Position numbers and translations under genes: made by a program
Shown here: piece by piece, positions 10,402 through 13,671 of the stretch
How positions within the stretch are numbered: the stretch's first letter is position 1
Layout of the letters: each line of letters starts with the position of its first letter
Notes under the pieces: model-generated
Database searches by the model: none
Seen by the model: only the letters and a program-made list of their open reading frames with translations
What the model was told of the DNA's origin: nothing
DNA from: Nostoc sp. TH1S01
GTDB taxonomy: Bacteria; Cyanobacteriota; Cyanobacteriia; Cyanobacteriales; Nostocaceae
DNA: 64,000 nt
NCBI GenBank assembly: GCA_018993265.1
Contig: JAGKSW010000038.1
Location: 16,804 to 80,803, forward strand
Direction of reading: 5' to 3'

Positions 10402-11439
10402 ATGACTAACCAACTCCAAGACTATAATCCAAGTGGTGTCGGTGAAATTAATGGCAACCTCTTTGGTTTGCCATTTGATTACGAGTCAGCAAACTTAATT
10501 GTCTTTGCCGTACCTTGGGAAGTCACAGTTTCCTATGGTGCAGGTACAGCCAACGGCCCCCAAAGAATCCTCGATGCTTCCACACAACTAGATTTATTTG
10601 ATTTTGACAACCCCGATGGCTGGAAACAGGGAATTTTTTTGGTTGAAATTCCTCAAGATATTTTAGAAAAAAATCATTACCATCGCACATTAGCCGCCCA
10701 AATTATTGAAAGGCTGGCACAAGGTAAACTCATAACAGACACACCCGATTTAACTCCTATCCTCACAGAAATTAATCAGGCTTCTCAACAGGTGAATCAA
10801 TGGTTATTTACCCAGTGTCAGCAAGCGATAAATCAAGGTAAGCAAGTAGCAGTTATTGGTGGAGATCACAGTTCTCCATTAGGTTATTTTCAAGCATTAG
10901 CAACGAAATATTCTAACTACGGCGTTCTGCACATTGATGCACATGCAGATTTACGCGATGCTTATGAAGAATTTGAATTTTCTCATGCCTCCATCATGTT
11001 TAATGCTGTGAAATTACCGCAAATCTCTAAGTTAGTTCAGGTAGGTTTACGTGATATTAGCCATGATGAAGTGCAAATGATTGATCAATCTCATGGTCGC
11101 ATCGTTGCCTATTATGACCCAGCCATCAAGCAAAAAATGTATGCTGGCATCACATGGATAGAGATATGCCGGGAAATTATCAATCATTTGCCCGAAAATG
11201 TTTACATTAGCTTTGATATAGATGGTTTAGATCCAAAACTTTGTCCAAATACAGGTACGCCTGTTGCTGGTGGGTTGGAATTAGAGCAAGCATTCTGTAT
11301 ATTACGTGAATTAGTCAATAGCGGTAGAAAAATTATTGGCTTTGATGTTTGTGAAGTTGGTGATGCAGAGTGGGATGGCAACGTTGGTGCGAGAGTTGTC
11401 TATAAGCTGGCGAATTTCATGGAACTATCTCAGCGATGA
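10402..11439 (+). CDS. speB: Ureohydrolase, agmatinase-type
   Basis: The Mn2+-binding motifs of the arginase/agmatinase fold are intact: GGDHSSPLG (about residue 153), HIDAHADLRDAYE (about 177) and SFDIDGLDP (about 272), followed by GTPVAGGLE. The family hydrolyses guanidino compounds: agmatine to putrescine and urea, arginine to ornithine, or guanidine itself in some cyanobacterial members. At 345 residues it is longer than the typical 300-residue bacterial agmatinase, with an inserted helical stretch near residues 95-130. It resembles the agmatinase described for arginine catabolism in Anabaena. The symbol is given with caution, since substrate cannot be read from motifs. The gene follows the response regulator by 57 bases and may be cotranscribed. 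Confidence 0.8.
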   Translation: MTNQLQDYNPSGVGEINGNLFGLPFDYESANLIVFAVPWEVTVSYGAGTANGPQRILDASTQLDLFDFDNPDGWKQGIFLVEIPQDILEKNHYHRTLAAQIIERLAQGKLITDTPDLTPILTEINQASQQVNQWLFTQCQQAINQGKQVAVIGGDHSSPLGYFQALATKYSNYGVLHIDAHADLRDAYEEFEFSHASIMFNAVKLPQISKLVQVGLRDISHDEVQMIDQSHGRIVAYYDPAIKQKMYAGITWIEICREIINHLPENVYISFDIDGLDPKLCPNTGTPVAGGLELEQAFCILRELVNSGRKIIGFDVCEVGDAEWDGNVGARVVYKLANFMELSQR

Positions 11440-12813: not shown

Positions 12814-13671
12814 ATGCAGCAGCAAAAAAATCAATTCAGTCATCTCACAGCAATCGAAAGAACGTACCTGTCATTTCCAGCAAAGTTTTTATTAAATCAA
12901 AACCTACTTCAAGGCCGAATACTAGATTTTGGCTGTGGTTTTGGTAGCGATGTTAAATTATTGAGTGAAAAAGGCTTTGATATTATCGGTTATGATCCTT
13001 ATTATTTACCTCATTACCCACATGGACAATTCGATACGATCATTTGCTTTTATGTTTTAAATGTTTTGTTTTCTGAAGAACAAGCTAATGTTTTAATGGA
13101 AGTATCACATTTATTAAGACCAGGTGGTAAAGCTTATTATGTCGTGAGAAGAGATATTAAAAAACAAGGTTTTAGAGAACATTATGTTCATAAAAAACCG
13201 ACATATCAATGTGTTGTCAAGCTGCCTTTTCATTCAATTTATTTAGATGAAAGCCGAGAAATATATGAATATATTCATTATAATTATCAACGTAATTCAT
13301 CTAATAACTGTATATTTTGTAATCCTTACAAACATTTAAATTTATTAACTGAATCAGCAACAGCTTATGCTATGTTTGATGGTTATCCTGTAAGTAAAGG
13401 ACATGTATTAGTCATTCCTAAACGGCATGTAAGTAATTATTTTGAATTACCATTTAAAGAACAATCTGCTTGCTGGTTGATAGTAAATAAAGTTCAAGAG
13501 ATTCTCAAAACAGAATTTGCGCCCGATGGCTTTAATGTGGGAATGAATATCAATCGAGAAGCTGGACAAAATATTATGCACGCTAGTATTCATATCATCC
13601 CCCGCTATAAAGGTGATAATATGGGTACTAAAAGTGGTATTAGGAATGTAATAAATAAAAAAAATAAGTGA
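12814..13671 (+). CDS. SAM methyltransferase - HIT domain fusion with altered histidine triad
   Basis: Residues about 25-135 form a class I methyltransferase with the SAM-binding ILDFGCGFGSDV and a post-core LLRPGGKAYYVVRRD. From about 165 a HIT domain begins with CIFC, continues with YPVSKGHVLVIPKRHVSNYFEL and ends in GQNIMHASIHIIPRYKGD. The family triad H-x-H-x-H reads His256-Ala-Ser258-Ile-His260: the middle residue, the nucleophile that forms the nucleotidyl intermediate in FHIT and HINT enzymes, is Ser (codon AGT at 13585). Hydrolase activity is therefore doubtful, and nucleotide binding without turnover is possible. The gene stands alone and is AT-rich relative to its neighbours. The fusion looks genuine since the linker is in one continuous frame. 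Confidence 0.85.
   Translation: MQQQKNQFSHLTAIERTYLSFPAKFLLNQNLLQGRILDFGCGFGSDVKLLSEKGFDIIGYDPYYLPHYPHGQFDTIICFYVLNVLFSEEQANVLMEVSHLLRPGGKAYYVVRRDIKKQGFREHYVHKKPTYQCVVKLPFHSIYLDESREIYEYIHYNYQRNSSNNCIFCNPYKHLNLLTESATAYAMFDGYPVSKGHVLVIPKRHVSNYFELPFKEQSACWLIVNKVQEILKTEFAPDGFNVGMNINREAGQNIMHASIHIIPRYKGDNMGTKSGIRNVINKKNK

Follow-up and report, generated by a model that had tools for sequence, protein, structure and literature searches.

A cyanobacterial methyltransferase–HIT fusion family that keeps its nucleotide pocket and has mostly lost the catalytic histidine

The window (the whole 64,000-nt stretch of Nostoc sp. TH1S01 DNA analyzed here) encodes a 285-aa protein in which a class I methyltransferase with an intact SAM-binding motif is fused to a histidine triad (HIT) domain whose catalytic histidine is replaced by serine. 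The protein belongs to a cyanobacterial family in which that histidine is missing from 170 of 181 full-length members, the other pocket residues are frozen, and both halves are under purifying selection. We propose that the HIT domain serves as a binding-only pocket that controls or feeds the methyltransferase, a reading to which we give an even chance. The features of the gene are as follows (window coordinates):

12814–13671, forward strand: methyltransferase–HIT fusion gene, ATG to TGA, 285 aa, stand-alone and without recurrent neighbors
12835–13287, forward strand: class I methyltransferase domain, residues 8–158 (Pfam, alignment to viral relatives, match to the TIGR04096 profile)
12922–12951, forward strand: SAM-binding motif I, LDFGCGFGSD (D38, G40, C41, G42, G44, and D46 invariant)
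12991–12999, forward strand: YDP, acidic end of methyltransferase strand 2 (Y60 and D61 invariant)
13051–13065, forward strand: YVLNV motif of the methyltransferase (invariant; common to viral methyltransferases)
13201–13209, forward strand: TYQ motif of the methyltransferase (T130, Y131, and Q132 invariant; common to viral relatives)
13288–13668, forward strand: HIT domain, residues 159–285 (Pfam; 3IMI and 1Y23 by sequence; FHIT by fold)
13309–13320, forward strand: CxxC (C166, C169), probable ligands of a predicted zinc, by analogy with bacterial HIT proteins that bind Zn; invariant in 181 of 181
13399–13428, forward strand: GHxLxxPKRH pocket strand (H197, K203, H205), invariant in 181 of 181, with no changes on the tree
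13534–13548, forward strand: NxGxN pocket strand, which includes residue 244 (family alignment)
13579–13593, forward strand: altered histidine triad H256-A-S258-I-H260 (sequence and family alignment)
13585–13587, forward strand: codon AGT for Ser258, which replaces the catalytic (middle) His (alignment, codons, tree)

Both halves scored well above the Pfam cut-offs: Methyltransf_23 at residues 25–112 (E = 3.5e-12; 46.8 bits against a cut-off of 27), with Methyltransf_25, Methyltransf_11, and Methyltransf_12 likewise exceeding theirs in the same half, and HIT (PF01230) at residues 177–266 (E = 5.6e-18; 65.8 bits against 21.5). The first half has the glycine-rich motif I and the acidic strand-2 residue of class I SAM-dependent methyltransferases, and both LDFGCGFG and YDP are fully or almost fully invariant. 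As a fold, the second half belongs to the HIT superfamily, on the evidence of its profile score and of fold matches to FHIT, 3IMI, and 1Y23. HIT hydrolases use the middle His to attack the alpha-phosphate, and this residue then bears the nucleotide. Codons 256–260 of the window protein (CAC GCT AGT ATT CAT) read H-A-S-I-H in place of the full H-x-H-x-H-x-x motif, and S258 pairs with the middle His of two Bacillus HIT structures, 3IMI (VFHFHLHLIPRY) and 1Y23. The residue that acts as nucleophile in the catalytic branches of the superfamily (Hint, Fhit, GalT) is therefore absent, with S258 in its place. A preliminary description of this DNA had reported the fusion and its H-A-S-I-H triad, and the Pfam matches, the codons, and the 3IMI/1Y23 alignment bear it out in every detail.

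An AF2 model built on a broader alignment was of moderate quality (pLDDT 75, pTM 0.63; HIT core mostly 75–92) and was used in preference to an earlier model at pLDDT 55, which was set aside. Its HIT part superposes on FHIT with an rmsd of 1.1 Å over 92 columns, and its fold matches include 2FHI (FHIT H96N with a substrate analog) as well as 3IMI and 1Y23. Residues 116–134 are poorly modeled, and the arrangement of the two domains relative to each other is not fixed by the model.

We scanned 84,980 species genomes and recovered 197 relatives, the best 80 of which (77%–92% identity) were all cyanobacterial. Of 391 genomes from the window's order, 144 proved to contain the fusion in whole-genome searches; outside that order, samples of 386 genomes from the phylum and 390 from the class held none at the same score, and none of the 105 plasmid and 18 phage records that matched covered 80% of the query. 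We assembled a full-length set of 181 proteins (180 collected members and the window protein), whose placed members all fall within the window's own cyanobacterial order; its counts are of loci and not of independent species, some of the 180 being one gene taken twice from two collections. A dereplicated set (<93% identity) had 123 members. No gene family recurred at a fixed place beside the fusion beyond related loci, so no pathway can be inferred from its surroundings. An agmatinase/ureohydrolase-like protein, recognized by eye, is encoded upstream of the fusion in the window (10402–11439); it is not a constant neighbor. In-frame stops interrupt the fusion gene in two relatives (L096 and L137, from G197 and G404), possible recent pseudogenes or assembly errors.

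Residue 258 varied widely across the full-length set (Ser 109, Asn 28, Ala 14, Thr 14, His 11, Leu 2, Gly 2, Gln 1) and across the dereplicated set (Ser 66, Asn 21, Thr 12, His 11, Ala 9, Leu 2, Gly 1, Gln 1). The conserved trait is the absence of His and not Ser itself. The homolog alignment that the preliminary description had proposed as a check on Ser thus has two outcomes: loss of the middle His is conserved, and Ser as such is not the conserved feature. The seven residues that replace His are chemically unlike, so they offer no common substitute nucleophile; Ser as an alternative nucleophile was rejected, Ala, Gly, and Leu also being tolerated at this site. In the same proteins C166, C169, H197, K203, H205, N241, Q252, H256, and H260 were identical in 181 of 181. 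At residue 244, in the NxGxN strand, each of the 11 His-bearing members has Phe, whereas 167 of the 170 others have Met, Ile, or Leu; shared ancestry may be partly responsible for this covariation with the triad. Ser at 258 is encoded by AGY in 109 of 109 cases, Asn always by AAT, and His by CAY; the Asn and Gln codons lie one base away from those for His, a pattern that fits separate losses of His.

A maximum-likelihood tree of 84 members, inferred with the middle residue masked, grouped all 11 His-bearing members in a single 16-member clade (support 100/97). This clade also includes two members with Leu, two with Asn, and one with Gln, and His has been lost again inside it. None of the other 68 members has His, and a 123-row tree was concordant. 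Site 258 changed 19 times on the tree, which puts it among the 58 fastest-changing of the 285 sites, and positions neighboring the frozen pocket residues changed 10–30 times; H256, H260, Q252, H197, K203, H205, P263, R264, and Y265 did not change at all. Median dN/dS values were 0.127 (HIT half) and 0.098 (methyltransferase half), and a value of about 0.13 indicates that the HIT domain is not decaying. The domain has the hallmarks of a pseudoenzyme, with fold and binding site kept, the catalytic residue lost, and purifying selection acting on it.

The preliminary description had held that homologs with an intact triad would expose the Ser as a sequence error or a lone mutation. Such homologs exist (11 of 181), but they form a distinct clade with repeated loss of His inside it, which argues against both explanations. 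A further 108 members have Ser at 258, among them the nearest neighbor of the window protein (92% identical). The in-frame stops in a few relatives (G197, G404) lean toward an error or a pseudogene, and dN/dS of about 0.1 leans the other way; we regard sequencing error, pseudogene, or lone mutation as hardly credible. The simplest history without regain has five losses, if the ancestor had His as in all outgroups read. By count, a history of one early loss, three regains, and another loss is no longer than this, but it would require the exact catalytic His to return three times. When HIT sequences alone were analyzed with outgroups, the root landed at an unresolved position within the His-less group and drew long-branch warnings, and the His-less group as a single clade was not rejected (AU p 0.23 and 0.64); the outgroups fix neither the root nor the exact order of losses.

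We also compared each half with its stand-alone relatives. The nearest stand-alone HIT proteins come from plasmids and viral contigs (up to 49% identity), and several of their genes adjoin HNH endonuclease genes. The middle His is kept in all 69 of those read (7/7 plasmid and 62/62 viral), and the first triad His is Tyr, Trp, or Gln in 24 of the 62 viral proteins. These plasmid and phage proteins (PHROG 19494; HNH nuclease neighbors), together with the Hint-like 3IMI and 1Y23, are the closest in sequence to the HIT half of the fusion and share with it the CxxC, the PKRH, and an R-G-G-x-R-x-V-I-P tail. Those read keep the middle His and none is fused to a methyltransferase of this type, whereas the fusion is mostly His-less. 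Many viral HIT proteins (L241–L260) have Tyr or Trp as the first triad residue with the middle His intact (QTVMYPHIHLIPR), the opposite of the fusion pattern.

The methyltransferase half aligns end to end, at about 40%–47% identity, with stand-alone viral methyltransferases of ∼150 aa (e.g., L264, L265, and L268), which share its YVLNV, VRRD, and TYQ motifs. Unlike the fusion, they have no HIT domain; they weakly match PHROG 24759 "methyltransferase." The search for relatives of this half centered on viral contigs and cyanobacteria, and "viral-type" therefore describes what was found and not a proven origin. No methyltransferase and HIT genes were neighbors within 1 kb in the viral contigs. 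The methyltransferase core is also homologous to TIGR04096 (DNA phosphorothioation-associated putative methyltransferase), whose N-terminus it matches less strongly than it does the viral proteins, scoring 64.8 bits over residues 10–87. TIGR04096 proteins are ∼480 aa long, against 285 aa and no recurrent dnd neighbors for the fusion. We rejected membership in this family (dnd_rel_methyl) because the score falls far below the cut-off of 150, the match covers partial length, and dnd genes are absent from the recurrent neighbors of the fusion. The true TIGR04096 protein of the window's genome sits elsewhere, beside dndE in a dnd locus (L082:1039–2931).

Inactive HIT relatives are already known as a kind, from the laboratory (FHIT H96N) and from birds (HINTW). 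FHIT H96N binds substrate tightly and does not cleave it (PMC4074825); it keeps signaling (PMC4074825), its tumor suppression is nearly equal to that of the wild type (PMC4074825; PMC5745650), and the corresponding mutant MccH H101N is inactive (PMC7157772). The fusion's HIT domain has the same fold as FHIT H96N (PDB 2FHI) and is altered at the same position, some natural members even having Asn there. Human FHIT is, however, an active enzyme whose H96N form was engineered; in the fusion the change occurs naturally, is shared by many species, and affects a protein that also carries a methyltransferase. HINTW, the avian W-linked HINT paralog, resembles the fusion in being a HIT protein predicted to lack the key catalytic part; it evolves under weak purifying selection (dN/dS 0.6) (PMC4053838) and has been proposed as a dominant negative. 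In contrast, the fusion's HIT domain has a dN/dS of 0.13 and an intact pocket in which the nucleophile alone is missing. As for architecture, NitFhit of Caenorhabditis elegans (1EMS) likewise joins a FHIT domain to another enzyme, in this case a nitrilase, but has an intact triad.

Taken with the otherwise frozen pocket, the inactivity of the FHIT and MccH mutants gives good grounds for the earlier view that this is probably not an ordinary nucleotide hydrolase. In the reading we favor, the protein would pair a HIT domain turned pseudoenzyme with a methyltransferase whose SAM site is intact. With no middle His, no nucleotidyl-histidine intermediate would form. Instead, the pocket would hold a (di)nucleotide or a nucleotide-bearing ligand without turnover, as FHIT H96N does, and its occupancy would regulate the methyltransferase or deliver substrate to it. 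The parts of this proposal differ in strength. By analogy with the mutants, covalent HIT catalysis has very probably been lost in the window protein. That the pocket still binds a nucleotide seems probable, on the same analogy. That binding controls or serves methylation is a tentative step, at best evenly balanced. Because 11 members keep an intact triad, the family as a whole cannot depend on non-hydrolysis unless its ancestral protein had another way of working. The preliminary description's suggestion of a sensor for nucleotides or modified nucleotides, coupled to methylation, is conjectural; we found no ligand, methyltransferase substrate, or recurrent gene neighbor to back it.

The conservation that suggests binding could also come from folding, zinc, or dimer contacts. 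HIT proteins typically dimerise, the CxxC...H zinc set is invariant, and no ligand is known, all of which would suit a HIT domain kept as a scaffold for dimerization, a zinc site, or support of the methyltransferase, with no functionally important ligand. A scaffold, however, needs no frozen flanking triad His, Gln252, Lys203, His197, or NxGxN amid neighbors that change 10–30 times, and we consider this explanation unlikely. Another possibility is that HIT catalysis persists without the middle His, through H256 and H260 with direct attack by water or through a nucleophile supplied by the methyltransferase (candidate His123), another subunit, or the substrate. H256, H260, and Q252 are invariant, as is His123 of the methyltransferase domain. 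Against this stand the lack of hydrolysis by FHIT H96N and MccH H101N (PMC4074825; PMC7157772) and the acceptance of Ser, Ala, Asn, and Leu alike at 258; moreover, the His123 region (116–134) has low confidence in the model, which gives no distance from it to the pocket. We consider persistent catalysis improbable.

Also improbable is a single path for the two domains, in which the pocket would hold a nucleotide-containing substrate (e.g., capped or adenylated) for methylation and hydrolysis would be harmful. The fusion itself suggests coupling, loss of the cutting residue from a kept pocket fits the holding of a substrate, and there is a weak DcpS_C profile match (E = 1.1e-6). Yet there are no recurrent biosynthetic neighbors, and the nearest methyltransferase relatives are stand-alone, with no HIT partner within 1 kb.

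The favored reading of a pocket that binds without cutting can be extended more speculatively. A methyltransferase type otherwise seen here in viruses and a HIT domain of mobile-element type would have been joined in one cyanobacterial order, and the nucleophile would then have been lost some five times while the pocket stayed frozen. The result might be a nucleotide-gated methyltransferase responding to ApnA or a similar alarmone, a natural and repeated counterpart of the FHIT H96N case in which the bound complex is the signal; we think this unlikely. If the ligand were ApnA or another alarmone, the fusion would be a candidate bacterial receptor. The idea that HIT proteins signal by holding a nucleotide and not by cutting it rests largely on FHIT H96N, a mutant made in the laboratory. 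In this family, naturally His-less proteins occur beside His-keeping close relatives of the same architecture and lineage; their comparison could give direct insight into the role of a HIT domain after hydrolysis is lost, with the methyltransferase as a ready read-out. A literature search found no published description of the methyltransferase–HIT fusion; presumably the architecture may already bear a generic bifunctional name in public annotation pipelines.

Several other fusions that involve HIT domains were seen along the way. A viral contig (L263:908–1939) encodes an apparent fusion in the reverse order, with a HIT domain that retains the middle His (WPHVH) at the N terminus and a C-terminal part that, by eye, resembles a different class I methyltransferase. 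Three loci (L127:4412–5407, L128, and L129), from genomes that belong to a different family within the same class, have an HNH-type domain N-terminal to an intact-triad HIT domain; on plasmids (L195, L197, and L200) the HNH and HIT parts are separate adjacent genes. Finally, a 1320-aa reading frame (L130) joins an intact-triad HIT domain to an apparent helicase-type protein.
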